This document shows, piece after piece, positions 14,028-31,000 of a stretch of DNA of 38,190 nt (positions within the stretch are counted from its first letter, which is position 1; the number at the start of each line of letters is the position of its first letter). Position numbers and translations under genes: made by a program. The notes beneath the pieces were generated by a model. It was given only the letters and a program-made list of their open reading frames with translations. It was not told the DNA's origin and made no database searches. This DNA comes from Burkholderiales bacterium (GTDB taxonomy: Bacteria > Pseudomonadota > Gammaproteobacteria > Burkholderiales > Usitatibacteraceae), in contig JAHCLE010000013.1 in NCBI GenBank assembly GCA_026125445.1, positions 1 through 38,190 on the forward strand. The letters run 5' to 3'.

Positions 14028-16448
14028 TTGAGCAAGCGTCCACTCATCGCGCGCGTAGCTGACGCCCTGCTCGCCCTCAGCGGTGAGGGTGGCCCCGCCC
14101 CTTCCGCTGTCGTCAGCGCGCCGGTACAGGATGGTCCTGCGCCCTCTGTCGCGGCCCCGGAAGCCGCCGCAGAGGGCGAGTCCCGTGCCATCATCGCGGC
14201 CGCGGTCCCGTCGCTCGCGCCTCAGCCGAAGAGCTCATCCCTGCAGATGGTCCGGGCCGCAACCCCCGGCGAGGTCAAAACCTACGGCTCCGAGGTCCGT
14301 CGCCGCGGCTTCCAGCGGCACCCTGTCGTCCATTCCTGCATCCGGGTCATCACGGACATCGTCTCGAGCGTCCCCCTCGTCGTGCATAGGGAGCGCGGCA
14401 ACGCCGACTCGCGGGTGCCCGAGGACCATCCCCTGCAGAAGCTCTTGGACTATCCGGCTCCGCGCATCACGGCGCGTCAGCTTCGGGCGCGGTTCTGCGT
14501 GGACTTCCTCGGCTACGGCAACTCGCTGTGGCACTCGCTCCGCCTGAGCAAGTTCGGCCTGCCGGTGAACCTCCGCCCCATCAACGCCGAGGCCATCCAG
14601 AACGTCTGGGTGGACAACGAGGGGGACGCGGCGCGCTACCAGTTCAGCGATTGGAACGGCGTGGTGCAGACCGCCGAGGCCAAGGATGTCATCCACTTCC
14701 GCGACCTCGAGATGCCGCGCCCGTACTACCCGGACGTGTTCGGCTACCCCCGCGGCGCGGCCGCGCTCGAGAGCATCGTCACGGATATGGAGGCCTCTTC
14801 GTACACGCGGCAGGTCGTCAAGAACGACGGCACCCCGACGCTCGCCGTGATGCTCGAGGATGGCCGCGACCAAGAGGACGCGGACGTGATGAAGGCGCGC
14901 TATCGCGAGCGCGTGGTGAAGCGCGGGATGCGCGGCGACCCTGCATTCTGGGCCGGCGTCAAGGATGTGAAGTCGCTGGGCTTCAACCTGACGGACCTTG
15001 AGTTCCCGGACCTGCGCCGCGTGAACCGCGAGGACATCTGCTCCGCCTTCGGCGTGGACCCGCGCATCATCGGCATCGGCACCGCGTCCAGCGACGGGGG
15101 GCTCTCCGGCGTTCAGTACCAAGAAGCGCGCCGCCGCCTCGTGCAGATGCAGGTGGAGCCCATCCTCGTTGTTCTCTGCGATGATCTCAATGCGTGGCTC
15201 GCCCCTGAGTTCGGCGACCTGTGGATTGAGCCCGACCACGACATCCTGCGCGACCTCATCGAGGACGATGAGGAGACGAGCGTCCGCGTGGACCGCGAGG
15301 TGAAGGGAGGGCTCCGCACGTGGGAAGAGGGTCGCCGTGCGCTGAAGCTCCCCGAGCGGCCTGCGCCGAAGGAAACGCTGGTCGTGTCCATCGGGACGAG
15401 TCTTGTGCCGGTGGCGACGGCCCTCAGTCCTGAGCCCCCCGCGGTCACGCCCACGCCGGCCACCCCACCGGGGAGCCCCGCGGCGCAGGCCGCTGAGGGC
15501 GAGGGGGAAGGGGAAGGGGCCTCGCGCTCGATGCCCTCTGAGGGCGTTTCCCTCGACAAGACGGCCAGCCCTGCGCCCCCGCTGGACCCGCGCTACGTGC
15601 GCTGGCGCGCCCAGAACGACACGCTGGACGCCGACGAGAAGGAATACGTGGTCGCGGCGCGGGTGCGCTTCCTCGAGGAGCGTCGGCGCATCGTCCGCAT
15701 CTTCGAGCTCGCCGCCGAGGGGCAGGTCACGGAGCCCGCGAAGAAGCGCGTGGCAAAGGGGGCCGACAAGGTGCCGGGGTGGGCCGACCCCATCCTCGAG
15801 GAGGCCGTGCGCCGCGCGCTCCGCGAGTACGCGAAGGGGGGCGACCTGTGGCTCGGCTGGGTGGAGACGTTCCGCGCCCTCGTCACGCGCACCTATGGGG
15901 CCGGCGCACTCGACGCGATGAGCGGGGTGAAGGCCGGCGGCACGGGACTCAACTTCCAACTGAGCTCGCCCGACGTGCAGAAGGCCATCGAGGACCGGCT
16001 CGAGACGCTGGCGACCCTCATCACGAAGGACACCGCGCGGCAGGTCACGGCGGCGGTGCGCGCCGGCGAGGTGGCGGGGCTGAACATCGCTGAAATCGCC
16101 AGCCTGATTCGGACCTCGGTGTACGGCGACCCGATGACGGAGAACCGCGCCAAGACCATCGCGCGCACGGAGAGTGCCGGCGCGTTCAGCCGCGGCGCGT
16201 GGGACCAAGCCAAGCGCGCGGGTATCTTCCAGAGCAAGGAGTGGCTGGCGTTCGAGAACAGCAAGACCCGGACGACGCACTCCGCGTGTATGGCCGAGGG
16301 GCGCATCCCGATTGACCAGCCCTTCGCCGCCAACGGACTGCTCTACCCTCTCGACCCCGCGGGCCCCGCCGACGAGGTCATCAACTGCCGCTGTACCCTC
16401 GTCTACTACGACGAACCGATTGGAGAGCCGCCCAATGCCGACGCCTAA
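14028..16448 (+). CDS. portal protein fused to a Mu-F/SPP1-gp7-like head morphogenesis domain
   Basis: 806 residues from TTG 14028 (context MSKRPLIARVAD-like; GGGGAGG just upstream). Residues about 70-440 are an HK97-type phage portal: YGSEVRRRGFQRHPVVHSCI, DFLGYGNSLWHSL and GIGTASSDGGLSGVQYQEAR are typical blocks. A Pro/Ala/Glu-rich linker spans about 455-545. The C-terminal part, about 545-806, is a Phage_Mu_F domain with RTESAGAFSRGAWDQA and the closing INCRCTLVYYDEP signature. The portal forms the DNA channel; MuF proteins assist early capsid assembly. In most phages these are two adjacent genes. The fusion is intact, without a stop or frame change. Confidence 0.95.
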   Translation: MSKRPLIARVADALLALSGEGGPAPSAVVSAPVQDGPAPSVAAPEAAAEGESRAIIAAAVPSLAPQPKSSSLQMVRAATPGEVKTYGSEVRRRGFQRHPVVHSCIRVITDIVSSVPLVVHRERGNADSRVPEDHPLQKLLDYPAPRITARQLRARFCVDFLGYGNSLWHSLRLSKFGLPVNLRPINAEAIQNVWVDNEGDAARYQFSDWNGVVQTAEAKDVIHFRDLEMPRPYYPDVFGYPRGAAALESIVTDMEASSYTRQVVKNDGTPTLAVMLEDGRDQEDADVMKARYRERVVKRGMRGDPAFWAGVKDVKSLGFNLTDLEFPDLRRVNREDICSAFGVDPRIIGIGTASSDGGLSGVQYQEARRRLVQMQVEPILVVLCDDLNAWLAPEFGDLWIEPDHDILRDLIEDDEETSVRVDREVKGGLRTWEEGRRALKLPERPAPKETLVVSIGTSLVPVATALSPEPPAVTPTPATPPGSPAAQAAEGEGEGEGASRSMPSEGVSLDKTASPAPPLDPRYVRWRAQNDTLDADEKEYVVAARVRFLEERRRIVRIFELAAEGQVTEPAKKRVAKGADKVPGWADPILEEAVRRALREYAKGGDLWLGWVETFRALVTRTYGAGALDAMSGVKAGGTGLNFQLSSPDVQKAIEDRLETLATLITKDTARQVTAAVRAGEVAGLNIAEIASLIRTSVYGDPMTENRAKTIARTESAGAFSRGAWDQAKRAGIFQSKEWLAFENSKTRTTHSACMAEGRIPIDQPFAANGLLYPLDPAGPADEVINCRCTLVYYDEPIGEPPNADA

Positions 16449-17310
16449 GACGCCCACGCGGGAGCGTCAGACCCGCCACTTCGAGAACGTCGAGATTCGG
16501 GTCGAAGAGGATGACCTGCCCCCCGGCATCATCGGCCGCATCGTGGCGATGGCCCTGCCGTTCAACGTGGTGGACAGCTACCGCTCGATGTTCGCGCCGG
16601 GGTGCGCCGCGCGGTCCATCGCCCAGAAGGTGGCCGCGCGCAAGGTCCCCTTCCTGCTCGACCACGAGCGCAAGACGCACTCCCACACCGGCACGGTACG
16701 CAAGGTGGAGGACGGCGGCGTGGGCTACATCTCGAGCGCGGACATCCTCGACACCCGCGTGGGCCGCGACACGATGGAGTACGCCAAGGCCCTCATCGCG
16801 AGCGGCGGCACCACCGGCGTGTCCATCGGGTTCATCCCGCGGCAGTCGCGCTTCGACAAGGTCGGCGAGGTGACCATCGAAGTGTTCACCGAGATTGAGC
16901 TGACGGAGATTTCGCTGACCCCGATGCCGGCGGTCCCCGGCGCGTCCGTCATCTCGGCGCGCAAGGACCGCACGGCCCCGGACGAGGGGGACGAGGAGGG
17001 GAAGGGTGGGGATGCGCCCGAGGGCGAGGACCCGCCGCCGCCCCCGCCCCCTGTTGACGAACGCCGGGACGATGTTACGATTCTGACCATCGCCGCCGAA
17101 GCCGCCCTCGCCGCCCTGCCGGACGAGGCTCGCTCCGCGGTCCTGAAGAAGTACGCCGCCTCTCCTGCGCCCTCGGCACCCGCCGCCCCCGACTCGGGGA
17201 GCACCGGGAAGGCCTCGGCAGACGGAACGCGGACTGACGCCGGCCTCTCGATGGACGAGCGACTGAAGCTCTACCGCGAGACGTTCCGGCCCACTCCACG
17301 CTCTACCTGA
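16435..17310 (+). CDS. HK97-type prohead protease with C-terminal acidic extension
   Basis: 291 residues from ATG 16435, overlapping the portal end by 14 bases with GGAGAG upstream. Residues about 15-180 are a peptidase U35 (HK97 family) serine protease: VPFLLDHERKTH with catalytic His77, and GGTTGVSIGFIPR with catalytic Ser130, then 'TEIELTEISLTPMPAVPGA' typical of the C-terminal strand. The last 110 residues are low-complexity acidic/Pro-rich followed by a helix, which may act as a scaffold during assembly, as has been seen for protease-scaffold fusions. It should process the capsid protein encoded next. Confidence 0.95.
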   Translation: MPTPKTPTRERQTRHFENVEIRVEEDDLPPGIIGRIVAMALPFNVVDSYRSMFAPGCAARSIAQKVAARKVPFLLDHERKTHSHTGTVRKVEDGGVGYISSADILDTRVGRDTMEYAKALIASGGTTGVSIGFIPRQSRFDKVGEVTIEVFTEIELTEISLTPMPAVPGASVISARKDRTAPDEGDEEGKGGDAPEGEDPPPPPPPVDERRDDVTILTIAAEAALAALPDEARSAVLKKYAASPAPSAPAAPDSGSTGKASADGTRTDAGLSMDERLKLYRETFRPTPRST

Positions 17311-17321
17311 GGGCCTGACCA

Positions 17322-18944
17322 ATGTTCGCCTCGTTCCGCCGTTCCCGCGGCGTCATCCTCACCAAGTTCAAGGGTGTGTATGACGCGGCTTTCCAGTTCA
17401 CGGGCGGCGCGCCGCTCCGTGGTCGCCACCCGGACAACGTGATGGTGCGGGTTCGCACCGCCCCGTCCACGCTGGGCTGGCTCATCATCGCCCTCGCGCT
17501 CGGCGCGCTGGCGTACCTGCTCACGTCCCTCACGGCGGACCTCGCCGCGGGACTCTCCCTTGCGGCCGTCACACCGATGGTCAGCAAGGACCGCACCGCG
17601 GCCAAGTGGCGCGACGAGGCCAACAAGGTCCGCGCCCAGATGCTCGACGAGAAGGTGACGCTGACCCGCGAGCAGGCCGAGAAGATGCAGGCCGACATCG
17701 CCGTGTTCGAGGCCCGCGCGCAGGCCGCGGCGGGGTTCACCGGCGACGAGGAGATTAGTCGTCAGGGCGGCGAGGGCGACCTCGTCCGCATTGACGGCTC
17801 CGAGGAGGGCCGGCGCGACGAGCGCAAGGAAGCGTCCTTCCGCACGATGAAGGACGCGCACGACGAGGTGCGCGCCGAGCTCCGCACGGTGTTCCCCTCG
17901 ATGGGCGCGTTCCTGCGCGCCTGTCGCAACGGCGTGGACGCCGGCGGCGAGGAGGCCTCGGTCCTGAAGCGCGTGGCCGAGATGACCCGCACCATCACCG
18001 GCTCGACGTTCGGCGGCGAGTACCTGCTCCCGCTCACGCAGGTGCAGGAAATCTTCAGCATCAGCAACCAACAGCCGGGGCTGATGGAGCGTTCGCGCCG
18101 GTACAACGTGCCGGGACGCTCGCTCCGCATCCCGTACCTGAAGCAGGACGAGGGCACGAACATCCTGAACCGCCCGATGGCCGGTAAGATTGCCGCCATC
18201 GCCATCGTCGGCGAAGGTCAGGAGAAGCCTGCGCGCGAGCCGAGCTTCGGCCAGCGCGTCCTCGAGATGTTCAAGTACGCCGCGCACACCCCGTTCGGCG
18301 ACGAGATTCTGTCCGACGACTTCACCGGCGAGCTCCCCGGCGAGGTCATCTCGGCGGTGGGCTCCGAGATTATGAACCAGCTCAACGCCCACTGCACGAT
18401 TGACGGCACCGGCACCGGGATGCCGCTGGGCGCGCTGAACGCGAACAACGGGGCCATCCTCGCGGTCAACCGCACCTCGGCGGGTGACTTCACGGTGGAC
18501 GATGCCTTCGCGATGTACGTGCGCCACACCCTCGGCCCGAACTCCGTGTGGCTGGTGAGCCGCCGCGTCAACGAGAAGCTGATGCGGATGACCCTCACCA
18601 ACAACGGCCTCGTGACGTGGCTGACGGACCTGCGCTCGGCCCCCGTGATGCTCCTGCTCGGCATCCCGGTGGTGGTGACGGACTTCCTGAACCCGCTGGG
18701 CTCCCGCGCGGACGTTGCGCTGGTCAACGGCGATTTCTACGCCTTCGGGCTCCGGCAGGCCCTCACGGTGGAGTCGTCCATCCACGCGAAGTTCATCGAC
18801 GACGTGACGGTGTACCGGTTCTTCGCCCGTGGCGGCGGCATCCCGCTCCCGACCTCGACCTACGCCTACAAGGTGGACGGCTCGGGGAACAAGGTGGACC
18901 CGCACTCCCCGTTCACGATTCTCGATGTCCCGGCCTCGTCGTAA
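17322..18944 (+). CDS. major capsid protein (HK97 fold) with unusual N-terminal hydrophobic segment
   Basis: 540 residues. From about residue 86 on it is a classic HK97-type capsid precursor: a coiled-coil delta region (about 88-135), then the mature shell domain with SMGAFLRACRNGV, TFGGEYLLPLTQVQEIF, GEGQEKPAREPSFGQ and 'GIPVVVTDFLNP'. The first 85 residues are unexpected: a basic stretch, then LGWLIIALALGALAYLLTSL at 51-70, a clear membrane-length hydrophobic span. An internal ATG at 17577 (Met86) would give a standard capsid precursor but has no ribosome-binding site, whereas ATG 17322 has GAGG upstream. The N-terminus may be removed by the protease. Confidence 0.93.
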   Translation: MFASFRRSRGVILTKFKGVYDAAFQFTGGAPLRGRHPDNVMVRVRTAPSTLGWLIIALALGALAYLLTSLTADLAAGLSLAAVTPMVSKDRTAAKWRDEANKVRAQMLDEKVTLTREQAEKMQADIAVFEARAQAAAGFTGDEEISRQGGEGDLVRIDGSEEGRRDERKEASFRTMKDAHDEVRAELRTVFPSMGAFLRACRNGVDAGGEEASVLKRVAEMTRTITGSTFGGEYLLPLTQVQEIFSISNQQPGLMERSRRYNVPGRSLRIPYLKQDEGTNILNRPMAGKIAAIAIVGEGQEKPAREPSFGQRVLEMFKYAAHTPFGDEILSDDFTGELPGEVISAVGSEIMNQLNAHCTIDGTGTGMPLGALNANNGAILAVNRTSAGDFTVDDAFAMYVRHTLGPNSVWLVSRRVNEKLMRMTLTNNGLVTWLTDLRSAPVMLLLGIPVVVTDFLNPLGSRADVALVNGDFYAFGLRQALTVESSIHAKFIDDVTVYRFFARGGGIPLPTSTYAYKVDGSGNKVDPHSPFTILDVPASS

Positions 18945-18960
18945 CGGACGAGGACGAGAG

Positions 18961-18986
18961 GCGGTGGGGGCCTTGTCCCCCACCGC
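18961..18986 (+). terminator. strong hairpin just downstream of the capsid gene
   Basis: GCGGTGGGGG pairs perfectly with CCCCCACCGC around the loop CCTTGT (10-bp, almost all G-C), starting 17 bases after the capsid stop. No T-run follows, so it may be a partial terminator or an mRNA 3'-end stabiliser that keeps capsid mRNA abundant. It also argues against starting the next gene at GTG 18964 inside the stem. Confidence 0.5.
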
Positions 18987-19002
18987 CCCAGAGGGGCTGG
19001 CT

Positions 19003-20310
19003 TTGGCGACAGGCTCGCCGGAGCCGGCCCCTCTGCTGTCGCGGGAGGGTGAGGGAGCCCCGCCGCCGCCCGAGCCCTCTGAGGGCAACCTCGCGCCAAA
19101 GCCCCTCGACAACTCACCACGCTATGTCTATGCGCTCTGGGACTGCATCATCGCCGGGGTGCGGCGCGCGGAGGGGGAGCGGTTCGCCATCCCCGCGCAC
19201 CGCGAAGCCGACCTCACCGCGGGTGGCCTGCTGATGAGCGAGGCCGCGGCCCACGCCCTCTGGCACCGCCCGGACGGGCGCATCCTCACGCCCAACGCGG
19301 TCCTCAGCACCTACCGCCGCGCGAAGCTCGGGGAGCGGCCCCTGCGCGTCCTGCAGATGACGCACTACGACCCCGGCTCGAGCGTGTACCGCTACCACAG
19401 CGCGGCCAACACCATCCCCGGCGTCTCGTCGGTCCTCGTGCGCTTCGGCGACAGCAACCCCCACACGAGTCTGCGCCAGTGGGACGGCCACAAGGATATG
19501 CCGGCCGTGCGGATGCTCCTGCGGACGGCGGACGTGGTGCATTGCCATATGGACCTGCGGTGCCTGTTCCACGAGCTCCGTAGCTCCCTGATGCCGGGGC
19601 AACGGCTCGCGCGCACCTACCACGGCTCCGTGCTCCCGGAGGACGCGGGGAAGCGGGTGCTCGTGGAGCGCGAGGTGGACGAGCGGAACAACGCCATCGT
19701 GTTCGGCGCGCGGCCCTACCACCTGCGGCCGGAGCACGGCGTCAAGCACTGGCTCCCCATCCCGATGCCGGTGGGCGACTACGCCCAGCTTGCGACGAAC
19801 CGCGTCCAGAGCCGCACCGGACGCCCCTTCCGCGTGGCGCACAGCCCCACGAACAAGGCCATCAAGGGGACGGATGCGTTCCTCGCCGCCGTGGACATCC
19901 TGCGCGGCGAGGGGCTGAACATCGAGCCCGTGATGATTGAGGGGATGGAGCACGGGAAGGCCTTGGTGCTGAAGTCGTCCTGCGATGCGACCTTCGACTC
20001 GTTCTGGCTCGGGATGCAGGGGTCGGGGCTCGAGGCCGCGGCGATGGGCCAGCCGGTGCTCGCCGGGGACCCGGACGCGCAGGCCGACCTCGTGCGGCTC
20101 GGCATCGGCGTCCCGTGGACAGTGGCGAACGACTCCGCCGCGCTCGTCCACCAGCTTCGCCGGCTGATGGTGGAGCCGGGGTTCTACGAGCAGGAGGCCT
20201 CGCGCGTGGGCGACTATGTGCGGCGGTACCACGACTACCCTCGCGTCGGCGAGCTCTATGCGCGTATCCTTCGGGAGCACGTGACCCTACAGCCCCCTCA
20301 GGAGGGGTGA
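19003..20310 (+). CDS. glycosyltransferase (GT-B fold, GT4-like)
   Basis: 435 residues from TTG 19003, which has GAGGGG 7 nt upstream; in-frame GTG 18964 lies inside a hairpin. The first 40 residues are Pro/Glu-rich. The N-terminal domain contains LRVLQMTHYDPGSSVYRYHS and, near residue 205, the conserved TYHGS nucleotide-sugar-side motif. The C-terminal domain starts at FRVAHSPTNKAIKGTDAF and has the donor-binding GLEAAAMGQPVLAG near 340-353. The GT4-like second Glu motif is present. Acceptor unknown; the position between capsid and connector genes suggests a virion protein, or else a host or phage glycan. Confidence 0.85.
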   Translation: MATGSPEPAPLLSREGEGAPPPPEPSEGNLAPKPLDNSPRYVYALWDCIIAGVRRAEGERFAIPAHREADLTAGGLLMSEAAAHALWHRPDGRILTPNAVLSTYRRAKLGERPLRVLQMTHYDPGSSVYRYHSAANTIPGVSSVLVRFGDSNPHTSLRQWDGHKDMPAVRMLLRTADVVHCHMDLRCLFHELRSSLMPGQRLARTYHGSVLPEDAGKRVLVEREVDERNNAIVFGARPYHLRPEHGVKHWLPIPMPVGDYAQLATNRVQSRTGRPFRVAHSPTNKAIKGTDAFLAAVDILRGEGLNIEPVMIEGMEHGKALVLKSSCDATFDSFWLGMQGSGLEAAAMGQPVLAGDPDAQADLVRLGIGVPWTVANDSAALVHQLRRLMVEPGFYEQEASRVGDYVRRYHDYPRVGELYARILREHVTLQPPQEG

Positions 20311-20313
20311 GCC

Positions 20314-20907
20314 GTGGCCCTGCCGACCCGTGACGACCTGAAGAGCTACCTGAAGATTGAGATTGACGCCGAGAACGCCCTGCTCGACGCCCTGCTCGTG
20401 CAGGGCAAGGCGATGGTCGAGGTCTGGATTGGCGCGCCCATCACGGCGGTCCAGCGGACCTACGTGGACCGCGCGGTGGCGGGTCGGGACGGCTTCGTGG
20501 ACGGCGAGGTGGCGACGGCCCTCATCGTGCCGGTGCGCCCCATCGGGAGCACCCCTGAGAACCCCGTCGTCGTGACGGACGGCGCGGGAGTGGTCGTGCC
20601 CAGCACCGACTACGAGGTGGACACCGCCGCGGGGATGCTCTGGGGGAAGAACGGCAAGCGGTTCCCGAACGGCCCCTACAGCATCACCTGCCTCGTAGGG
20701 CTCTCCCTGTGGCAGAAGTACGCGCAGGTGGAGCCCGTGCTCTCGCGCGCCATCCTCGACGTTGCGGCCGACCTGTACCAGAACCGCACCCCGCGCGCGA
20801 TGAGCGAGACGGGGGCCGGGGTCGCGATTCCGTGGGACGTGAGCCGGCACACGAGCGAGCGCGTCATCCGTTCGCTGAAGGGCCTCACCCTGCCGGTGGT
20901 CGCGTGA
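20314..20907 (+). CDS. head-tail connector protein (HK97 gp6-like)
   Basis: 197 residues from GTG 20314 with AGGAGGGG upstream. N-terminus LPTRDDLKSYLKIEIDAENA followed by ALLDALLVQGKAMVEVWIG is the typical DNA-packaging/adaptor protein start (gp6/gp15-like: a helical hairpin with 'D-x-LL-x2-L'), and the C-terminal half contains a beta region and helix that pack on the portal. It forms the ring joining portal and tail. Overlaps the next gene by GTGA. Confidence 0.88.
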   Translation: MALPTRDDLKSYLKIEIDAENALLDALLVQGKAMVEVWIGAPITAVQRTYVDRAVAGRDGFVDGEVATALIVPVRPIGSTPENPVVVTDGAGVVVPSTDYEVDTAAGMLWGKNGKRFPNGPYSITCLVGLSLWQKYAQVEPVLSRAILDVAADLYQNRTPRAMSETGAGVAIPWDVSRHTSERVIRSLKGLTLPVVA

Positions 20908-21314
20908 CGCAGGTTCCCGGCCTCCTGACCCAGCGGGTGCGGCTCTACACGCCCGAGAACATCGGAGCCCACGGCTTCGACAAGGTCGTGTACCGCTTCA
21001 CGGGCGAGTGGTGGGGGCGCGTGGGGGAGAGGGCGGCGACGGAGAACGTGCCGCAGGCCCCGCAGGCCACGCGCGAGTACCGCCTGCAGGGGCGGGCCGT
21101 GGTCGCGGACTACGTGCCGATTCCCCTCAACGGAGTGCTGACCGAGGGCGGCGACCTGTGGTGGATTCGCGGGGTCGTGAAGAGCGACCAACGCCGCCAG
21201 CAGGTCGTCACGCTCGAGCGCATCCAGCCGAACGAGTTTGTGACCCTCGCCGAGCCGCAGGAGAGCTTCGCCACCGGCGACCAGCTCGTGGACTCGATGG
21301 GAAGCTGGCAGTGA
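20904..21314 (+). CDS. head closure / head-tail adaptor protein
   Basis: 136 residues from GTG 20904. The start VTQVPGLLTQRVRLYTPEN resembles the 'LR-x-RV-x-I/L' beginning of SPP1 gp16/HK97 gp7-like stoppers, and the beta-rich body with a GEWWGRVGERAATEN and YRLQGRAVVADYVP fits that family. It sits in the standard position after the gp6-like connector. Expected to plug the portal exit after packaging and to receive the tail. Confidence 0.8.
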   Translation: MTQVPGLLTQRVRLYTPENIGAHGFDKVVYRFTGEWWGRVGERAATENVPQAPQATREYRLQGRAVVADYVPIPLNGVLTEGGDLWWIRGVVKSDQRRQQVVTLERIQPNEFVTLAEPQESFATGDQLVDSMGSWQ

Positions 21315-21553
21315 GCCACATCGTCGGCCGCGACCCGCGCCGCGAGGGGGGCCTCACGCCGGAGGACCGCGCGCGCGTGGAGGGGCTGGTGGCGCAGTAC
21401 GCCGGCTACGTCGAGGTGCAGGAAGAGCCGGTCACGCTCCACTGGCGCAACGCCGCAGGGCAGACAATCACGGCGCGTGGCGATACTCTTCAGGCGGCTG
21501 TAGCGATGCTCTATGAGAGGGTCGTCCAGCACCATAGACTCCCGAGTCCATAA
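21311..21553 (+). CDS. hypothetical protein in the connector cluster
   Basis: 80 residues from GTG 21311 (GTGA overlap). Acidic/basic mixed sequence with helix LTPEDRARVEGLVAQYAGYV and a final amphipathic helix LQAAVAMLYERVVQHH. No family recognised. Shares its stop base with the ATG of the fibre-like gene at 21553. Possibly a small virion-assembly factor. Confidence 0.75.
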   Translation: MSHIVGRDPRREGGLTPEDRARVEGLVAQYAGYVEVQEEPVTLHWRNAAGQTITARGDTLQAAVAMLYERVVQHHRLPSP

Positions 21554-22878
21554 TGACTATCCAGCACAAGGACATCACTGGCCTCGACGCGGTGCATCCC
21601 GGCGCAGTGTTTGATACGGCGGATCCCGGCGCGATAGGGGCGCGCAAGGCGTGGTATGACACCACGGATGGGCTCCTAAGTCTCCGGGTACGGAATGCGG
21701 CAAACGATGGATGGGACGAGCCGAACCTACTCCGCCGTGTCGGGCGTGTGCGCTCAGGGGTGAATCAGGAGGCGAGCGCGACGGAGATATATGGGGAGCG
21801 TGGCACCGGGGATTCAACCCCAGCACCCATCATTTTCTACGTGCCCGTAAGAGGGTCCAGCGGCTCCACGCCCCAGACCCTGACGGAAGGGTTCCGGGTG
21901 CAGGAGGTGGCGGCCGCGAGCGGGCGGGAGGTGGCGGCGTGGAATCCCACGGGGCCAGTGATGGCAGGGCTACCGCTGAATACTGCCGCCTCGCTGCTGC
22001 GGACGGGTCAGGCGGTGCGTTTCGGCGGGCAGGGCACGATGATTCGTGTGAGCGCCGCCCCGAACTGGCTCGGCTTGCGCGTCAACGGGAGTTATGACTC
22101 GCCGACGAATGCGGTGAGCGGCGATACGCTGGTCGGCTTGAGCGCCATCACGCTTGCGTCGGATGGCAACTTCTACTCCGTGGGTCGTGTGGAAGTGCAG
22201 GCCCGCGAGACTCCGACGGGCACCGCGAACGGCACCCGCTTGGCCCTCATCGCGACCGCCGTGGGGTCTGCGAGCACCAAGACCATCGTGTATGTGCAGG
22301 GCGGCGGGACGAGCATCGGCGAACTGGTCAGCGGCCAGCCCACCCTCCGCCTCATCCCCGGCGCGACGCAGTTCGCCATCCGGGACAGCGGGAACACGGC
22401 GGACGTGTTCACCGTCAACGCGGCGGGGACGGCGATTACCGCACCGCTGGCGACGAGCTTCGTGGTGGGCACGGACCCGGGCGGCTCGGCGTTGCTTCGC
22501 GTTGGCGGGAACATCGCTACGGTTGGCGCGGTCTTGGCAACTTCCGCGTTGAGCCGCAACGTCTCAACCGGGTCGTTCACACTGAGCGGAGGCAACGGAG
22601 CGACCAACGGCGGAAACGTCGTAGGGTATGGAGGCTCCCATCCCACCCAAGCCAACGACATCGAGTTCCGCTCCGGCTCGACCGTGCGCGGCTGGTGGGA
22701 CGACTCCGCCGCGCTGTGGACCTTCGACGCCGACCACGCCATCGGCGCGGCGCACGCCTATCACCTCGGCGCACCCGCCACCGACGGCACGTGGCGCTTC
22801 ATCCGCTCCGGCACCGACCTGCTCATCCAGCGCCGCGAGTCCGGCACCTACGTCACCAAGTCCACCATCTCCGCGTAA
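21553..22878 (+). CDS. fibre-like or virion-decoration protein
   Basis: 441 residues. Gly/Ser/Thr/Ala-rich with many short beta-repeats ('GTANGTRLALIATAVGSAST', 'LSRNVSTGSFTLSGGNG'), lacking Cys and with few charged helices, as in phage fibres, spikes or decoration proteins. The N-terminus (KDITGLDAVHPGAVFDTA) resembles the virion-attachment region of fibre proteins. Base composition and codon choice are less GC-biased than neighbours, suggesting recent exchange. Its location between head-closure and tail-completion genes is unusual for a tail fibre, so a head fibre or decoration is possible. One of only five GATC words lies here (21622-21625). Confidence 0.75.
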   Translation: MTIQHKDITGLDAVHPGAVFDTADPGAIGARKAWYDTTDGLLSLRVRNAANDGWDEPNLLRRVGRVRSGVNQEASATEIYGERGTGDSTPAPIIFYVPVRGSSGSTPQTLTEGFRVQEVAAASGREVAAWNPTGPVMAGLPLNTAASLLRTGQAVRFGGQGTMIRVSAAPNWLGLRVNGSYDSPTNAVSGDTLVGLSAITLASDGNFYSVGRVEVQARETPTGTANGTRLALIATAVGSASTKTIVYVQGGGTSIGELVSGQPTLRLIPGATQFAIRDSGNTADVFTVNAAGTAITAPLATSFVVGTDPGGSALLRVGGNIATVGAVLATSALSRNVSTGSFTLSGGNGATNGGNVVGYGGSHPTQANDIEFRSGSTVRGWWDDSAALWTFDADHAIGAAHAYHLGAPATDGTWRFIRSGTDLLIQRRESGTYVTKSTISA

Positions 22879-22909
22879 CCCTCTACCCCACCCCTCACCC
22901 ACCCGCCCA

Positions 22910-23146
22910 ATGGCACAGCATCTCGCCGACGCGCTCCACTACGACCGCCCCAACGCCCGCTGGACCCTCTCGGTCCAGCTCCCGCGCACCCGCGTGGGCG
23001 TCTCCATCACGCACCCCGTGGACGCACCGCCCACCCCGCCGTCGCTCGCCGACTTCGCCCTCGCGGGCCTCGCGGACGGCACGCTCCCCGAGGGCACGAC
23101 CCTCGCGTGGGCTCCCGCCACCGCGCAGGGGGAGGAGGAAGAATAA
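22910..23146 (+). CDS. hypothetical small protein following the fibre gene
   Basis: 78 residues from ATG 22910, the first start after a 31-base C-rich gap. N-terminus ADALHYDRPNARWTLSVQLP, then a Pro-rich part, a helix (LADFALAGLADGTLP) and an acidic end. A Tyr/Trp-containing beta segment suggests a small folded domain. No family recognised; perhaps a chaperone for the preceding fibre-like protein, by position only. Confidence 0.7.
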   Translation: MAQHLADALHYDRPNARWTLSVQLPRTRVGVSITHPVDAPPTPPSLADFALAGLADGTLPEGTTLAWAPATAQGEEEE

Positions 23147-23523: not shown

Positions 23524-23919
23524 GTGGACATTGACGTGACGCTCACGGACAACAGCGAGAACGCGCGCCGGCGGTATGAGGAGGCGGCGCGGCTCGGCAT
23601 TGACGCCGCCGCGAACGTCCTCGTGCGGGAGGTCAAGAAGGCCTTCGGCTCCGACTACTACAAGGGCGGGGCGTTCCGTGGCACCCTCGGGGTGCGCGGG
23701 TCCATCACGCGCACGAACGCCGAGCGCGGCCCCTCCGGGTGGAGCGCGCAGGTCGGGACGCGGTTCATCGAAGCCCTTTACTGGGAGCTCGGCCACTTCA
23801 ACACGTTCACGCGCCAGCACGAGCGGGTGCGTATCTGGGAACCCACCGCCATCGCGCAGGAGCCGGCGATGCGCGCCGCCTTCGCGCGCGTGGCGAAGCG
23901 CGTGATGGACGCCCCGTGA
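23524..23919 (+). CDS. tail completion protein (HK97 gp10-like)
   Basis: 131 residues from GTG 23524. Pattern of the HK97 gp10 family: N-terminal beta strand, a long helix (RRRYEEAARLGIDAAANVLV), a 'G-x-LRGS/GVRGSI' beta segment and the WELGHFNTFTRQHERVRIW block near 87-105, followed by a final helix with Ala/Arg. It helps join the tail to the head. In standard order before the tail terminator gene; overlap GTGA. Confidence 0.88.
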   Translation: MDIDVTLTDNSENARRRYEEAARLGIDAAANVLVREVKKAFGSDYYKGGAFRGTLGVRGSITRTNAERGPSGWSAQVGTRFIEALYWELGHFNTFTRQHERVRIWEPTAIAQEPAMRAAFARVAKRVMDAP

Positions 23920-24425
23920 CGAACCCCGGCCCGTGGGACGCGGACACGCTCGGGCTTCCCGACACGGGGAGCACGAACCAGATCTACGGCACCCTCGTAA
24001 AGGTGCTGGCCGACTACGTGCGCCCCGGCGACAACGCGCGGCTCTCGCAGGTGCTCGGCTCGCCGGAGCGCATCAAGGTCGGCGCGCTGGGGAAGCTCCC
24101 CGAGTACCCGTACCTGACGCTCCTGCTGGACCGCACCACGAGCCCCGGCTCCAACAGCTACCGCGAGTCGTGGCGGCTCGAGGTCCAAATCATCGGCAAG
24201 CCGCTGGGCCAGCGCACGGCCGTCGAGTGGGCGATGGACCTCGTGGATGCGGCCCTGCTGGGGGTGGTGCTGTCCCAACCGGGGAGCCTGCTCTACTGCT
24301 CGCTCCGCCAGCGCGCGACCCTGCCGCAGTTCACCGACCCCGCCGAGATTGGCACCGTAGGGGTCCGCGCGACCTTCGACTTCCTCGCGTGGCCGCGCGC
24401 CCTCTCGCGCCGGCTCACGCCCTGA
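23916..24425 (+). CDS. tail terminator protein
   Basis: 169 residues from GTG 23916. The order (gp10-like, then this, then the tail tube) and a pattern of helix-strand-strand-helix with SYRESWRLEVQIIGKPLGQR fit tail terminators that cap the tube and attach it to the head. No direct family motif that I can name, so the call rests mainly on synteny. A 42-base gap follows, without a strong promoter. One of the five GATC words is at 23981-23984. Confidence 0.75.
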   Translation: MTNPGPWDADTLGLPDTGSTNQIYGTLVKVLADYVRPGDNARLSQVLGSPERIKVGALGKLPEYPYLTLLLDRTTSPGSNSYRESWRLEVQIIGKPLGQRTAVEWAMDLVDAALLGVVLSQPGSLLYCSLRQRATLPQFTDPAEIGTVGVRATFDFLAWPRALSRRLTP

Positions 24426-24467
24426 CATAGCTTATCCACCAGCAACGCCCACCCGCCGAGGCCCCGT

Positions 24468-25034
24468 ATGGATACCCCGCTCTCTGGACTCCGCCCCCAG
24501 ACGTTCCCCGAGGACGTGCTACTTGACTCCGGGGTGCTCTACATCAACGACACGCCCTTCGCCTGCCTCACCGGTGGCCTGAAGTGGACCCCCGAGGTGG
24601 AGTACCGCAACATCCCCTTCGACGGCAAGCGCGCCGACGTGAAGGGGCTGGACCGCGTGACGATGCGGAAGGGCAAGGTGTCCGGCACCGTCATCGAGAT
24701 GCCGAGCGACCTCATCGGCAAGCTCGAGCCCGGGGTGAGCTACGCGCCGGGGCAGGGGTGGAGCGGCGGCGATATGTACGTCCCGCGCAAGGCCGCGCTC
24801 CTGCTCACGGATGGGATGTACCTGACGAACGTGCGCGCGGTCTGGCTCCGCGGCAACGGCGAGCTCTTTCAGGTGCGGATGCCCTGCGCCCTGCTCACCC
24901 GCTACGATGCGACCTCGCAGGACGCCAACGAGGTTGCCATCGCCATCGAAGTGGATGCGCGGCTGGACCTGAGCGTTCCGGGCTCCACCCCCGGTGACGC
25001 GCCCTACGTGTACGAGTACATCCCCAACAACTGA
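24468..25034 (+). CDS. major tail tube protein
   Basis: 188 residues from ATG 24468. LLDSGVLYINDTPFACLTGG near the N-terminus, then KWTPEVEYRNIPFDGKRADV and KGLDRVTMRKGKVSGTVIEM are typical of siphovirus tail tube proteins, which form the inner tube by stacking hexamers. No sheath gene exists, which makes the tail non-contractile. It precedes the two tail chaperone frames as expected. Confidence 0.9.
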   Translation: MDTPLSGLRPQTFPEDVLLDSGVLYINDTPFACLTGGLKWTPEVEYRNIPFDGKRADVKGLDRVTMRKGKVSGTVIEMPSDLIGKLEPGVSYAPGQGWSGGDMYVPRKAALLLTDGMYLTNVRAVWLRGNGELFQVRMPCALLTRYDATSQDANEVAIAIEVDARLDLSVPGSTPGDAPYVYEYIPNN

Positions 25035-25039
25035 GGCCT

Positions 25040-25354
25040 ATGACCAAGGTGATTGACATTGGCGCGCTCGCGAGCCCGGAGCGCGCCCCCCGCATTCGCG
25101 TCGGGGAGCACGAGGTTCCCGTGCTCGGGCTGAGCGGCGACCTCGCGCTCCGGTTCTCCCTCGCCCAGCGAGAGAAGGACGCGGCGGCGACGATGGAAGT
25201 GATGCTCGCCGCCATCGCCGAGGTTATCCCTGACCTGCCCGAGGACGCGCGGAAGCGGCTGACCTTCGACCAAATCACGGCCATCGTGAAGCTCTCGCAG
25301 GGTGGCATCGAGGCCGTCGAGGCCGAGATTGCGGAGCGCGCCAAGGGAAACTGA
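25040..25354 (+). CDS. tail assembly chaperone (gpG-like)
   Basis: 104 residues from ATG 25040, five bases after the tail tube stop. Small acidic protein with the usual helical body (KDAAATMEVMLAAIAEVIPD) ending AERAKGN before TGA. In lambda-like phages G is followed by a -1 frameshift that adds a T domain; a canonical slippery site lies in its last codons (25345-25351). Essential for tail-tube and tape-measure assembly, absent from the mature virion. Confidence 0.88.
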   Translation: MTKVIDIGALASPERAPRIRVGEHEVPVLGLSGDLALRFSLAQREKDAAATMEVMLAAIAEVIPDLPEDARKRLTFDQITAIVKLSQGGIEAVEAEIAERAKGN

Positions 25355-25731
25355 AGGCCGCGTCGGGTGGCGAGGGGTCGCGGCCCCCCGTCGCGGTGAA
25401 GTGGAGCGCGGACCAATACGTGCGGCGCGTCCTCGTGGAAGTCTCTACGAGGTCGGGCCGCTCGTTGCGTAAGGTGGCGCGGGAGCCCTTCGCGCTGACC
25501 CTCTGGGTGTGGGGCGAGTTGCAGGAGATGGACCGGGAGCAGAACGTGGCGCGCCTCGGCGAGCGCATTGACCTCGCCTCGCTCGTGAGCGTGGCCGTGC
25601 TCGACCCCAAGCAGTTGCAGAAGGCCGAGATGCGGTACTATCGTCAGGCGGGTGTGCTGGCGCAGATGTTCGATGATGCCCGGAAGCGCGGTGCCGCCGT
25701 TCACGAGGCCCTTCAGAAGCGAGGCAAGTAG
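25040..25731 (+). CDS. tail assembly chaperone GT frameshift product
   Basis: The product of -1 slippage at 25345-25351 continues from CTG 25351 through TAG at 25729-25731, giving about 230 residues: 104 from G and 126 from T. The T part reads LKAASGGEGSRPP, then a helical domain (YVRRVLVEVSTRSG; LTLWVWGELQEMDREQ). A separate GTG start at 25396 exists but the slippery site, the spacing and a downstream hairpin argue for the fusion, as in lambda gpGT. The two products interact with the tape measure to set tail length. Confidence 0.8.
25345..25385 (+). promoter_or_regulatory. -1 ribosomal frameshift signal: GGGAAAC plus downstream hairpin
   Basis: G_GGA_AAC at 25345-25351 in the G frame matches the X_XXY_YYZ slippery heptamer, directly before the TGA. 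Four bases further on, GGCCGCG (25356-25362) pairs with CGCGGCC (25379-25385), a 7-bp stem with a 16-nt loop, placed as a stimulatory structure should be. Confidence 0.85.
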
Positions 25732-25733
25732 CC

Positions 25734-27596
25734 GTGGAAGTCTTTGCGCTGGGGCTCCGCATCAAGGAAGAGGGCGCGGCGGCGGTGAAGACCGCGCTCG
25801 ACAAGATGCGCGGTTCGCTCAAGGACACGAAGAAGGACGCCGACGAGCTCTCCAAGGGCTTCAACGGGATGCGCCTCAGCATCCTCGGTGCTGGCGCGGC
25901 CATCGCGGGGGTCGCGGGGTTCGGCCTCGCCAAGATGGTGTCCGCGAGCGTCGAGGCGCAGAAGAATCAAGCCCTGCTGACGAGTGCGTTTAAGGCGACG
26001 GAGGCCGGCGCGTGGACCTCGGTGGAAGCCCTCAACGCCCACGCCGCGGCCCTGCAGAAGATTTCCACGTTCGGCGATGAGGAAATCAACAAGGCGCAGG
26101 CGCGGCTCCTGACATACACCGGGGTCGTGGGGAAGGAGTTCACGCGCGCCACGGATGTCATCGTAGACTTCGCCGCCGCCTTCGGGCAGGACCTCGTGCA
26201 GAGCGCGGAGTCCGTGGGCAAGGCCCTTAACTTCCCCTCGCGCGGGATGGCCGGCCTCATCAAGCAGGGCTTCATCCTCACCGAGGCCCAGCAGGAGCAA
26301 ATCAAGTATTTCGAGGAAACGAACCAGCTTGCCAAGGCGCAGGCCATCATCCTCGAAGAGCTCGAGTCCGTGACGAAGGGGGCCGCGGCCGCACAGCGTG
26401 ACACCCTCGGCGGCGCGCTCACGGCCCTGCAGAACGCGTGGAGCGACCTGTTCGAGGTGAGCCGCGAGAAGTCGGCAGGCATCATCAAGTTCATCGAGAG
26501 CATCACTGAGTCCATCCCCAAGATGCGGGACTACCTCAGCGACCTCGTGCTCGAGTGGGGCATCCTCTTCGTGGACATCGAGCTCGGGCTCGCGAAGATG
26601 AACCGCGCGCTCGCCGCCTCGAACACGTTCATCGCTGGCATCGTGAACAAGGTGAGCGGCGGTCTGCTCGGCGGGGGCCTGATGGCGGAGCAGGCCGCGC
26701 GGCTCGCGGCGGCGGAGGCCGACATCGTCGCGCTCGAAATCCTGAAGCTCGATCGGCAGAAGGAGCTGTCGGCGCAGGTCGGCAACCGCACCGCGCCGGA
26801 GGCGACCAGCCCTGCGCGGGTGCCGCTCGTGACGCCGGGGGACGTGGCCGCGACCAAGGAAGAGCTCGACGCGATTCAGGCCGTCATCGACCAGCACTAC
26901 AAGGACGCCGCCGCGGCCTTCGCCTTCCGAATGGACCAGATGCAGGACGAGCAGGATGCGGTGAACGAGGTCATCAAGCAGGCCGAGCGTGACGCGGTGG
27001 AGGCCGCGAACAACCGGATGCAGGCGATGATTGAGCAGTTGGAGTTCCAGCAGGGGCTCCGCGATACCCTCGCCGAAGGGGTCGCGGGGTCCGTGGTGGA
27101 CGGCTTCGCGCAGGGCATCGAGGCGGCGGTGGCGACCGGCAACATCGGCGAGGGCTTCAAGGCCCTGACCGCCGCCATCCTGTCGGGGATGGGTGACGCG
27201 CTCATCTCGTTCGGTACGGCCTCGCTGGCCGGCTCCGCGCTGATGGCGAAAATCAAGGCGGCGTTCACCAGCCTCAACCCCTCTGCGATGGCGGGGGCGT
27301 CGGTGGCGATGATTGCCCTCGGGGCCACGCTGAAGGGGGCGGCTGGGGCCGCATTTGGCGGTCAGAGGCAGTATGGCGTGGGGGGTGGGGCCTTCACCCC
27401 CTTCGGGTCCGATGGGGGCTCTGGGGGCGATTCTACGGTCACGCGGCTGGTGTTCGGGCAGACCTCGGCGGGGATGGCCGCGGGGATGCGGCCCCAGCCG
27501 GTCACGCACGTCACGGTCATCGGGCCGAACGACCCGACCGCCCAGCGCGCGATTCAGGAGCTTATCGCTAACGGCAGTCGTCGAGGGGGGCTCTGA
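25734..27596 (+). CDS. tape measure protein
   Basis: 620 residues from GTG 25734. Long helical, Ala/Glu-rich protein with hydrophobic segments (for example LSILGAGAAIAGVAGFGLAK near 48-67 and the 'GLLGGGLMAEQAARLAA' region) and coiled-coil stretches (around residues 385-440). The N-terminal 'KTALDKMRGSLKDTKKDADE' is typical of tape-measure starts. It sets tail length; at about 0.15 nm per residue the tail would be near 90-95 nm, short for a siphovirus. The Gly-rich C-terminus may contact the tail tip. Confidence 0.93.
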   Translation: MEVFALGLRIKEEGAAAVKTALDKMRGSLKDTKKDADELSKGFNGMRLSILGAGAAIAGVAGFGLAKMVSASVEAQKNQALLTSAFKATEAGAWTSVEALNAHAAALQKISTFGDEEINKAQARLLTYTGVVGKEFTRATDVIVDFAAAFGQDLVQSAESVGKALNFPSRGMAGLIKQGFILTEAQQEQIKYFEETNQLAKAQAIILEELESVTKGAAAAQRDTLGGALTALQNAWSDLFEVSREKSAGIIKFIESITESIPKMRDYLSDLVLEWGILFVDIELGLAKMNRALAASNTFIAGIVNKVSGGLLGGGLMAEQAARLAAAEADIVALEILKLDRQKELSAQVGNRTAPEATSPARVPLVTPGDVAATKEELDAIQAVIDQHYKDAAAAFAFRMDQMQDEQDAVNEVIKQAERDAVEAANNRMQAMIEQLEFQQGLRDTLAEGVAGSVVDGFAQGIEAAVATGNIGEGFKALTAAILSGMGDALISFGTASLAGSALMAKIKAAFTSLNPSAMAGASVAMIALGATLKGAAGAAFGGQRQYGVGGGAFTPFGSDGGSGGDSTVTRLVFGQTSAGMAAGMRPQPVTHVTVIGPNDPTAQRAIQELIANGSRRGGL

Positions 27597-28045
27597 TGCC
27601 TGCAGGCCTGACGTTCACGGACCAAGAAGGCACCGCGACCCTGACCAACGGCTACGGCACCGCTGGGGGTGGCGCGGGAGCGCGCTTCCGTGGCTGGACG
27701 CCATTCATCATCCCGGTCGGCCCCGTTGAAACCTCCCTTGGTACGGGACGACGCTTTCAGTTCGCCTTCCGCACGGACTATGGCGCGCGGTTCCGGCTCG
27801 AAGAAATCCCGCAGAGCGCGCTCCCCGTCGCCCTGCGGCTCGTCGCGTGGCTTGTCTCTGGCGGCTCCGTAAGCGTGACCACGGATGACGCCCTTGGGCG
27901 TGTGTACGCGGAGTGCGTAGTCGCGCCGGACTCCGAGCCCTCGCTCAATATGTCCAGCGAGTCGGACCTGCGATACACCCTCGAGCTCGCGCTCATCAAC
28001 GTGGCCTCGCCCGTCACGCCGATGCTCTGCGAGTACACTATCTGA
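27596..28045 (+). CDS. distal tail / tail-tip adaptor protein
   Basis: 149 residues from ATG 27596, overlapping the tape measure. Beta-rich sequence (ARFRGWTPFIIPVG, FQFAFRTDYGARFRLEE) without helices or membrane spans. In siphovirus order the gene after the tape measure encodes a distal-tail or minor tail-tip protein that closes the tube, so the call is by position and fold type. Its last base is shared with the ATG of the large tail-tip gene. Confidence 0.7.
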   Translation: MPAGLTFTDQEGTATLTNGYGTAGGGAGARFRGWTPFIIPVGPVETSLGTGRRFQFAFRTDYGARFRLEEIPQSALPVALRLVAWLVSGGSVSVTTDDALGRVYAECVVAPDSEPSLNMSSESDLRYTLELALINVASPVTPMLCEYTI

Positions 28046-31000
28046 TGGCCGTCCTCAATCGTATTCTGCAGGGGCGGCTCGCGGCACACGCGCAAAGCCC
28101 AGAGTCAGGCGTCACGGACGCATTTAGCACTGCAGACTGGACGCTCGGCTCGCCGAACACAAAAGCACTTAGTTCGGGCGCGCTGGTATTCACCAACCCG
28201 ACACTGACCCAGGGGCAGACAGCGTCCTATGACCCCTTGGGCACTGCGGTCGCCGATGTCTTTATTCAGGCCGTCTGGTCAGCGCAGACGAACGGCCCGT
28301 CCGTGGGCATTGCCGCTCGCTTTGCTACCTACTCTAACCCCCCGAGGCTTCACACCGCTCTAGGTGCGGCCCGTACAACTGCCGCACTTCACGAGCGGAG
28401 GCCTGACGCGACAACCCAACAAGACACTGATGCCTTTAGCGCACTGACGCTTCCACAGCGCATCAGTATGGCTGTGGAGGGAGCCGCGGCTGAGTCATAT
28501 ATCCACGGCGCGGCGGTCGGGCTCTCGTTATCCTCACTAACCGTAGCGAGCGGTCGTGTCGGCGTGTATCTCACAAGTGGGCTCATCTACACCGCGACGT
28601 TTAGCTTCTGGGCGGCGATGCGGAGCCGATGGGTGCGCGTCGAGAATCTGCCGGCTGGCTGGGACGCGCAGATACTTGACGCCACGGACAGCGTTCTCGC
28701 CACCGCCGCAGAGTCGGGTGGGACCGCCACCCTTGACTGCCTCACCCTCGTATTTCCGAACCCCCGCAAGATCCGGGTGCGTGATGACCTTGGCGCAACC
28801 ATTGATACGTTTGTAATAAGCGGTGGGGTGTGGGGCGGCGATGTGTACGAGTTCTTCAATGTGCCCCCGGTTCCGGACACGCCCTCGGTGACGCCGGTCT
28901 CGGCGTTCGCGCTCGACATCGTGTGGGACACCATTCTCGAGGCCGACGAGTACGAGGTCCAGCGGTCCCTCGACGGCTCGACAGGATGGACGCCTATCTA
29001 CACGGGGTCCATCAACACCACGCAGGACGTGAACCTCCTGCCCCTGACGATTTACTACTACCGGGTGCGCGCCTGCAATGAGTTCGGGTGTTCGCTCTGG
29101 TCCCCGGTCGGTACGGGCACGACGCTCGCCCCTCCGACCCCGCCGGGAAAGAAGCGCGCCTACCGCTTGCGTGTACGCAACGCCTCCACTGAGGCACACC
29201 CGAACGGGACCGAGGACGCGCTCATCGTCACCTCGCTTCAGCGCGACCCCGCGGCGGTTTTTGTGGTTGCTGGGGTTGCCTATGTGCTCTCTGGTGGTGT
29301 GCCTGTGGTGGTGGGCACCTCGGGGGAGCTAAACAGCTACATCGCCGAGCCGCCGGATGGCGACGGGCAGGAGATTGACCTGCTGACCGGCGGGGTCCGC
29401 ACCGGGGCGTACTCCGTGCGGGTCGTAGATGCGGTGGAGTCCGTGGGTTCCGATGGTGTGGTGCGCTACGTCACCAGCCGACTCGAGGATGCCGGGTTCC
29501 GTCAGCAGTTGTTGAGTCGCCGCGCCTATATCGAGGTGAGCGAAAATGACGGGGCCACGTGGGAGCCCATTCACGCAGGCTACGTCACGCGGATTGAGCT
29601 TGCGTCGGCGATTTCCTTCGTATTTAGCATCGGCGACACCCGCCGCGTGGAGACTCAGCGGCGCGCGTTCACGTGGAGCCCCCAGAAGGGGCCGACCGGC
29701 GTGAGCGAGCGGGATGTCTTCCCTTCGCGTGGGTGCCTGCTCGGTGGCCCCATCACCGGGGGGTTCGGCCCCGTGCTCGACACCGGCGGCGACGAGTTCC
29801 GCATCCCGGAATCGCCGGAGCTTGACCCGCTCAGCGGCCGGTGGCTCGTCCCCCTGACGGTCATTGCGGCGTACCTGCCTCCGGACTTCCGGCGCGTTCG
29901 CGCTCAGCAGAGCCCGGGACAGGGCGGCGGCAACTTCTCGCCGTCCAGCATCTCCGCGTGGTACAACAAGGTGCTTCAGCCCTACCAGCGGAGCTTCACC
30001 GGGGTGCTCGGCATCTCGGGGACGGTGCTCAACAACATCCTCTCGTTCTCGCAGGGGAGCTACCCGGACCTGAGCGTGGTGCTGACGGACGGCACGACCA
30101 CGTGGCGCGGCACCCTGCGCGCGGCCGCGCTCCTGCAGGGCTACACCGCGCTCTGCGCCGAGCTCGACGCGGACACCCCTTCGCCGCCAACGGCAAGCTC
30201 AAGCATCACCTACCGGGGGCGCGTGTTCAAGACGGAGGTCGGGCCCGACTGCCCCATCTACGCCGACAAGCACCCCGTGGACCTCGTGACGGACCTGTTC
30301 GACACTATCGGGATGCTCTGGGATGCGGCGTCGGCGGCGGCAGTGAAGGACGCGCTCGGCGCGGACCTGCGGTATGCGATTCGCATCACCGCGCCGGTGG
30401 AGAACCTGCTCGAGTTCCTGACCAAGAGCGTCTTCGGGCCCTTCGGGTTCAGCATCCGAAACGGAGACGACGGGGAGCAGGAGTTCTATCCGACGCGCCT
30501 GCTCAACGCCGCGGCTCCCGTCATCACCATCAGCACCGACTCGCTGACGGATGCTGACGCGCCCATCTTCACGCTCGACGAATCACAAATCGTCTCCGGC
30601 TTCAAGGTGAGCTACAAGGAGTTTGCCAAGAGCACCCTTGGGCCGAACGCCTCGCCGCCGCCGCCCCCAGATGGCATCGTCGAGAGCAAGACGGATGTCA
30701 TCATCCAGAACGGCGACCTGAGCGTGTTCTCCACGCGCGAGGTGCAGTACGAGTTCGCCGGCTTCGTGCATCTGGCCGGTGGATGGGCGAGCGCGATGGG
30801 CTCCATCATCGGGGCCATCACGACCCTCGGACTGGACCGCTACGGGCGCGGCGCGCCCTCGATGGAAGTCTCCGTGCTCGCCACGGACGAGGCCTACGGC
30901 GCGAAGCTCGGTGACGAGGTGTACCTGAACGTGGCGCACTACCCGAATCGCAACTACCGCATCGGAGAGAGCACGGTGGGGGCGCGCATCGCACAGGTCG

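Follow-up and report, generated by a model that had tools for sequence, protein, structure and literature searches.

The window, by which we mean the whole stretch of DNA analysed, is the complete contig C35 of genome G000 and has a length of 38,190 bases at 68% GC. The bin that holds it amounts to 3.67 Mb in 469 contigs and is 90.8% complete. C35 is about five times longer than its numbered neighbours C34 (7,633 bases) and C36 (7,611 bases), and is exceeded in length by C1 (79,014 bases) and C2 (41,321 bases). It carries genes for a terminase large subunit, a prohead protease, a major head protein, tail proteins and a DnaB-like protein, and is tailed-phage DNA. The features that matter for the analysis are collected in Table 1. 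The gene at the tape-measure position has no relative in viral_contigs. Two further genes were noted: one with a RadC-like JAB domain at 6971-7456, and one in the late region, at 32786-33298, with a SAM methyltransferase domain (Methyltransf_25), which going by its family is probably not a DNA methylase.

Table 1. Features of the window and leftover copies of two of the depleted words
Feature	Position	Strand	Remarks
Tailed-phage contig	1..38190	.	68% GC; depletion genome-wide
ParB_N protein	8710..9252	+	
Candidate DNA amino-methyltransferase	9933..10565	+	permuted beta-class order (DPPW then LDPCCGMG)
PAPS-reductase/DUF3440 (IbrA-like) protein	10562..11236	+	without the N-terminal ~195 residues of the L021 copy
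ParB_N protein	11401..12132	+	some named relatives annotated IbrB
Gene at portal position	14028-16448		putative; from position and reading
Leftover GATC	15183..15186	.	in gene 14028-16448
Fibre-like gene, 441 aa	21553..22878	+	poorly purged; putative, 'fibre-like' by reading
Leftover GATC	21622..21625	.	in fibre-like gene
Gene holding a leftover GATC	23916-24425		
Leftover GATC	23981..23984	.	in gene 23916-24425
Gene at tape-measure position	25734-27596		putative; from position and reading
Leftover GATC	26751..26754	.	in gene 25734-27596
Leftover CCWGG, first of two	28209..28213	.	
Tail-tip gene	28564-32586		tail matches phrog_6977, phrog_31, fn3
Leftover GATC	28770..28773	.	N-terminal part of tail-tip gene
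DnaB-like helicase gene	36816-37916		
Leftover CCWGG, second of two	37862..37866	.	in DnaB-like helicase gene

The candidate methyltransferase gene scored 17.1 bits against PF01555, below the cut-off of 26.7. Its DPPWG and LDPCCGMG motifs are invariant across three aligned sequences, its own included. A structural model of moderate confidence (pLDDT 69.5) was compared with the PDB, and all 29 fold matches at E <= 0.001 were DNA methyltransferases (TM 0.45-0.61, rmsd 4.7-9.7), the beta-class enzymes MboIIA, M1.HpyAVI and M.BceJIV being included. The gene shows the marks expected of the beta class, motif IV (DPPW) placed before motif I (DPxxGxG) and a predicted methyltransferase fold, and the phage may modify some sites itself by means of this candidate enzyme. 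Named phages gave no match to the gene, and viral_contigs gave two loci. The methyltransferase-like gene abuts the shortened IbrA-like gene (9933-11236), which matches only residues 198-407 of the 407-residue frame of the related locus L021 and in which the N-terminal ATP-binding half is absent. One other locus, L113, has a homologue of both genes, its reductase frame being 396 residues long.

Depletion of GATC and of other palindromes

GATC occurs five times in the full 38,190 bases, in exact agreement with the number and positions given in a preliminary description of this DNA, although the range assigned there to the depletion, 15183-28773, was too short, the whole 38 kb being affected. Base composition predicts 112.5 copies and the all-subwords (Burge) formula 143.0 (ratio 0.035), and the exact count against a Markov expectation that the description had called for stands at 5 versus 179.9 under the maximal-order model. 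In 300 synonymous-codon shuffles, which leave all called proteins and the codon usage unchanged, GATC was found 173.9 +/- 8.9 times with a minimum of 149 (z = -19.0). The gene calls behind this and the following codon tests came from our own simple caller and comprise 11,584 codons.

The preliminary description had further proposed that isoleucine switches from ATC to ATT after a codon ending in G, and that the ratio should be examined against the previous base. Following a G, isoleucine is encoded by ATT 69 times, ATC twice and ATA eight times; following a C, the counts are 21, 344 and 3. ATT versus ATC depends on the previous base, with a Fisher p of 9e-60 for preceding G against all other bases, which bears the proposal out. 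Its example, AAGATTGAGATTGAC, starts at 20353 and not at 20354. Aspartate behaves likewise, with 3 GAT and 185 GAC before C as against 97 GAT and 368 GAC before other bases. Selection against GATC through synonymous codon choice is thus strongly supported.

At least four other palindromes have been eliminated along with GATC. Against the synonymous shuffle, CATG is found 0 times where 89.3 copies are expected (z -13.1), CCWGG 2 of 157.7 (z -16.5), GCWGC 2 of 118.3 (z -13.8) and RGCGCY 5 of 115.7 (z -13.5). The first proposal, of a GATC system 'in addition to the CATG one', is too narrow, since CCWGG, GCWGC and RGCGCY are purged equally. By the all-subwords formula, with expectations of about 50-143 for each word, the ratios are 0.035 (GATC), 0 (CATG), 0.035 (CCWGG), 0.024 (GCWGC) and 0.100 (RGCGCY). 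The same words emerge without supervision: scans covered every 4- to 6-mer as well as degenerate palindromes 4-8 letters long, with the synonymous null for comparison, and placed GATC and CATG at the top of the 4-mers, CCWGG and GCWGC at the top of the 5-mers, and RGCGCY at the top of the 6-mers. None of the 183 methionine codons is preceded by C, though C makes up 48% of third bases, and histidine before G is CAC in 84 of 84 cases. Control words lie within about two standard deviations of the shuffle, namely GGWCC (156 against 157.7), AGCT (159 against 147.5), TGCA (89 against 86.7) and TCGA (227 against 245). AGCT, TGCA and GTAC had earlier been called common; the first two are near the shuffle expectation, and GTAC is slightly low against it (95 against 123.8, z -3.7) but close to its Markov expectation of 106.4.

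Several other words are low with smaller expectations. By shuffle these are AATT (0/12.4), TGCGCA (0/13.3), GACGTC (0/17.9), CTCCAG/CTGGAG (1/34.9; 0/4.2 and 1/8.0 by all-subwords) and GCACGC with its complement (2/40.2), the last being a non-palindrome with small all-subwords expectations of 11.7 and 9.9 on the two strands. GCRYGC as the motif behind GCACGC was ruled out, GCGCGC being at expectation (134/132.9). The seven-letter palindromes GGCNGCC (1/32.2) and RCCNGGY (3/27.1) may be further avoided words; these are Markov values, the all-subwords values being artefacts of the N position, and both words are at expectation in the bin. For the six-letter palindromes CCCGGG (4/18.5), GTCGAC (1/9.2) and TGGCCA (0/8.7) the shortfall is confined to the window and absent from the bin; CTAG is low in both (7/29 in the window, 22/95 in the bin stretches). 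The window may therefore be under pressure from additional systems or from a more general avoidance of palindromes, and because CCCGGG, GTCGAC and TGGCCA are low only there, separate systems cannot be sharply told apart from general palindrome avoidance.

Related phage loci and leftover sites

Relatives were obtained by searching IMG/VR with the terminase gene, from which the best 80 of at least 600 loci were taken; 25 of these best 80 were aligned to the window proteins, with matches of at least 45% identity over at least 60 residues. At positions of identical amino acids where any of the 25 has a depleted word, the word survives in the window in 0 of 73 cases for GATC, 0 of 23 for CATG, 0 of 17 for CCWGG, 0 of 45 for GCWGC and 0 of 20 for RGCGCY. 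Control words were retained at 26-71% of such positions (GTAC 17/52, TCGA 21/65, AGCT 17/24, GGWCC 8/31). The proteins have thus been kept and the words removed, typical exchanges from relative to window being GATCGG to GACCGC and AAGATC to AAGATT.

The avoided set is shared in part. L021, with a terminase 74% identical to that of the window, has near-normal counts (observed/expected) of GATC (84/99), CATG (103/116) and GCAGC (99/112) and is without CCWGG (0/57), AATT (0/27), GGCGCC (0/9), AGCGCT (0/6), TGCGCA (0/10) and RCATGY (0/14). L142 follows the same pattern (GATC 76/91, GCWGC 92/105), with an overall RGCGCY count of 34/31 that is carried by AGCGCC and GGCGCT. Both loci resemble the window in lacking CCWGG and AATT, and likewise GGCGCC, AGCGCT and TGCGCA, and differ from it in that GATC is near expectation and, in L142, the overall RGCGCY count shows no shortfall. 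Since these nearest relatives share the absence of CCWGG and AATT while GATC is near-normal in them, part of the avoided set is private to the window. L144 and L146, 59% identical in the PAPS protein, are like the window in being without GCWGC (0/23 and 0/20) and CCWGG (0/18 and 0/16), with CATG low (6/41 and 6/36), and unlike it in their normal GATC (159/155 and 141/136). In L028, CCWGG is at 0/21 and AATT at 1/8. The remaining high-GC relatives of 10 kb or more in L023-L043 have at most one eliminated panel word each, except for L043 with four six-letter words.

Of the fetched phage loci, 38 reach 15 kb or more, in a set that was not dereplicated beyond dropping L141 (a duplicate of L142) and L114 and L124 (the window's own copies). 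No word is strongly eliminated in 17 of the 38, and only one locus, L150, has more such words than the five of the window. Each 20 kb end of the window taken alone also has five. L150 (1-20546), a metagenomic phage locus, has nine eliminated words: GGCC, AGCT, TGCA, GATC, CCGG, ACGT, ACSGT, GCWGC and CASTG. Elimination of GATC alone is not rare in the fetched loci (L148 0/55, L152 0/40, L155 0/78). Terminase relatives in named genomes amount to six loci of 47-53% identity, all metagenome-assembled and of mixed taxa (Bacteroidetes and relatives, a Euryarchaeota bin, a Pseudooceanicola bin), and are uninformative as to host.

The few sites that do remain in the window are unevenly spread. The fibre-like gene, 3.5% of the contig, holds 8 of the 16 leftovers of GATC, CATG, CCWGG, GCWGC, RGCGCY and GCACGC against an expected share of 3.8% (binomial tail 4.5e-8, for a gene picked post hoc though flagged beforehand in the preliminary description). 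Depletion in this gene is slight or moderate for RGCGCY (4 of 6.2 expected) and GCWGC (2 of 4.9), with GCACGC at 1 of 1.8, GATC at 1 of 6.2, CCWGG at 0 of 6.2 and CATG at 0 of 1.2. The lowest-GC kilobase, 28001-29000, contains the CCWGG at 28209 and the GATC at 28770. The pattern fits recently gained DNA in which purging is incomplete. Two of the leftover GATC sites had been ascribed to recently acquired DNA; this is supported for the fibre-like gene by its share of the leftovers, and for the N-terminus of the tail-tip gene the low-GC kilobase is a slighter hint. A search of viral_contigs for a donor of the fibre-like gene gave no relative.

The bin and its relatives as possible hosts

The five words are not avoided in the bin itself. 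In a sample of 20 stretches totalling 142,955 bases, observed and expected counts were 921/933 for GATC, 584/578 for CATG, 781/788 for GCAGC plus GCTGC, 647/707 for CCAGG plus CCTGG and 674/634 for RGCGCY, and the all-subwords ratios were 0.95-1.00. PF02086, PF00145, PF09554 and PF04556 all went without a match in profile searches of the bin, an absence that in a bin 90.8% complete is not proof. Five matches to PF01555 were obtained, of which loci L102 and L103 look, on reading, like putative Type III modification genes. PF02086 is found in none and PF00145 in one of the eight genomes of the genus (the bin's own included), and in 20 other genomes of the family they are found in one and nine, respectively. 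Across 200 genomes (the bin and relatives), the DpnII endonuclease family has no match and the HaeII endonuclease family matches one genome, in two pieces with a stop inside each. In a search for CRISPR spacers, both halves of the window were run against 150 genomes (the bin and relatives). Leaving aside the window's own sequence, the matches were weak (best E 6e-7 and 1e-6, 75-100% identity over 25-141 bases) and are probably due to chance in GC-rich DNA.

With no avoidance in the 143 kb sampled and no PF02086 or PF00145 methylase found, the bin is unlikely to exert the avoidance pressure, and the true host or hosts would lie elsewhere. The GATC-specific host system first supposed was not found there, given the normal GATC count, the lack of PF02086 and PF00145 and the 0 of 200 for the DpnII family. 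A note of caution follows for binning in general: a bin that receives a phage contig need not be the phage's host.

Explanations of the avoidance

Avoidance of GATC alone could be ascribed to Dam/MutHLS mismatch repair or to Dam-dependent regulation, the other words being left to restriction. According to a published study (PMC5014478), phiX174 is without GATC, and re-introduced sites reduced its mutation rate. The window resembles phiX174 in having GATC far below expectation; the phiX174 argument as given there, though, concerns mismatch repair and GATC, whereas in the window GATC is one of several words. Pressure from mismatch repair would hit GATC only, and as the purging of the other four palindromes is about as thorough, GATC is not singled out and no second mechanism is needed for it. 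The Dam family PF02086 is also lacking in the bin and in the eight genomes of its genus, with the reservation that the bin may not be the host. We regard this explanation as improbable.

Still less credible is a phosphorothioate-type (Dnd-like) modification or restriction at GATC, tied to the ParB and PAPS-reductase genes of the phage. The window does have ParB_N genes and a PAPS-reductase/DUF3440 gene, and when 82 fetched phage loci of 10 kb or more were compared (L141, L114, L124 and non-phage loci dropped), the PAPS gene was present in 29, including 6 named phages, with a mean of 1.69 strongly eliminated palindromes, and the 53 non-carriers, including 2 named phages, had a mean of 0.49 (Mann-Whitney 2e-4, relatedness ignored). 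These carriers are among L021, L142-L176 and L187-L194. Against this, the PAPS gene of the window is without its N-terminal half, L021 has a full-length copy and yet near-normal GATC, and strong elimination of any palindrome is absent from five of the six named carriers. Streptococcus thermophilus phages are alike with the PAPS gene (IbrA; GATC 36/147 and 27/156) and without it (35/129 and 28/126). PAPS-reductase/ParB as the cause of site avoidance was rejected on these grounds, and the difference between carriers and non-carriers likelier stems from host effects or sampling. In all four of these S. thermophilus phages (L187-L190) GATC stands at ~17-27% of expectation. The Microcystis phage Mwe-JY13 (L194) has a ParB-ParB-PAPS gene group, and GGCGCC is at 0/21.7 in it. 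Neither phosphorothioate nor mismatch-repair pressure on GATC alone is needed to explain the data.

That composition, codon bias or general palindrome avoidance produced the low counts, as the low CTAG of window and bin and the several low six-letter palindromes of the window might suggest, is equally remote and is refuted for the five main words by the shuffle that keeps proteins and codon usage (z -13.1 to -19.0, with GGWCC, AGCT, TCGA and TGCA within ~2 sd and GTAC at -3.7) and by bin stretches of similar GC in which these words are undepleted, though it may apply to CTAG and some of the six-letter palindromes.

The best reading, to which we give a probability of roughly 0.87, is that the phage avoids sites recognised by several Type II restriction systems of the orthodox kind. 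Restriction endonucleases would be the agent, each motif presumably answering to a separate system. Every unmodified site would carry a chance of cutting at phage entry, and synonymous variants that remove sites would be favoured until nearly none remain. We take the words to correspond to DpnII/MboI (GATC), NlaIII (CATG), EcoRII (CCWGG), TseI (GCWGC) and HaeII (RGCGCY). In the bin and its relatives, searched for PF02086 and PF00145 and for the HaeII and DpnII families, and in the spacer search of 150 genomes, no restriction gene, host or CRISPR spacer could be linked to the phage. The set of missing words hints at the restriction defences of the putative host. With five palindromes gone and the set differing between close relatives, it offers a testable signature of host restriction systems for an uncultivated phage.

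A more specific version of Type II avoidance is tentative and, in our estimation, rather unlikely. The private part of the set (GATC, CATG, GCWGC and RGCGCY) might record the restriction repertoire of one high-GC host equipped with at least five Type II systems. The fibre-like gene might then have been caught before purging, its donor phage having already been exposed to CCWGG and perhaps GATC, and not to RGCGCY or GCWGC. If the one-host reading were true, the missing words would be a readable fingerprint of the host, and gene exchange could be timed by them in relative terms. A gene purged of some words and still holding others can date its acquisition and point to its origin.

Short Type II palindromes of 4-6 letters are eliminated in phages according to Rusinov et al. 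2018 (PMC6286503), where elimination means a ratio below 0.1 and applies to 7.1% of Type II (phage, site) pairs. Judged by an all-subwords ratio below 0.1 with an expectation above 15, GATC, CATG, CCWGG and GCWGC are eliminated in the window and RGCGCY is borderline at 0.100, and the synonymous shuffle indicates that proteins and codon usage are not responsible. A literature search that was not exhaustive brought up no phage with this set of five words missing. The cases described by Rusinov et al. 2018 involve the same elimination of short palindromes, and all five words of the window are palindromes of 4-6 letters; the window differs from those cases in losing five words at once, each with an all-subwords expectation of about 50-143. 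The finding is thus a broad case of a known phage strategy, and its breadth is unusual.
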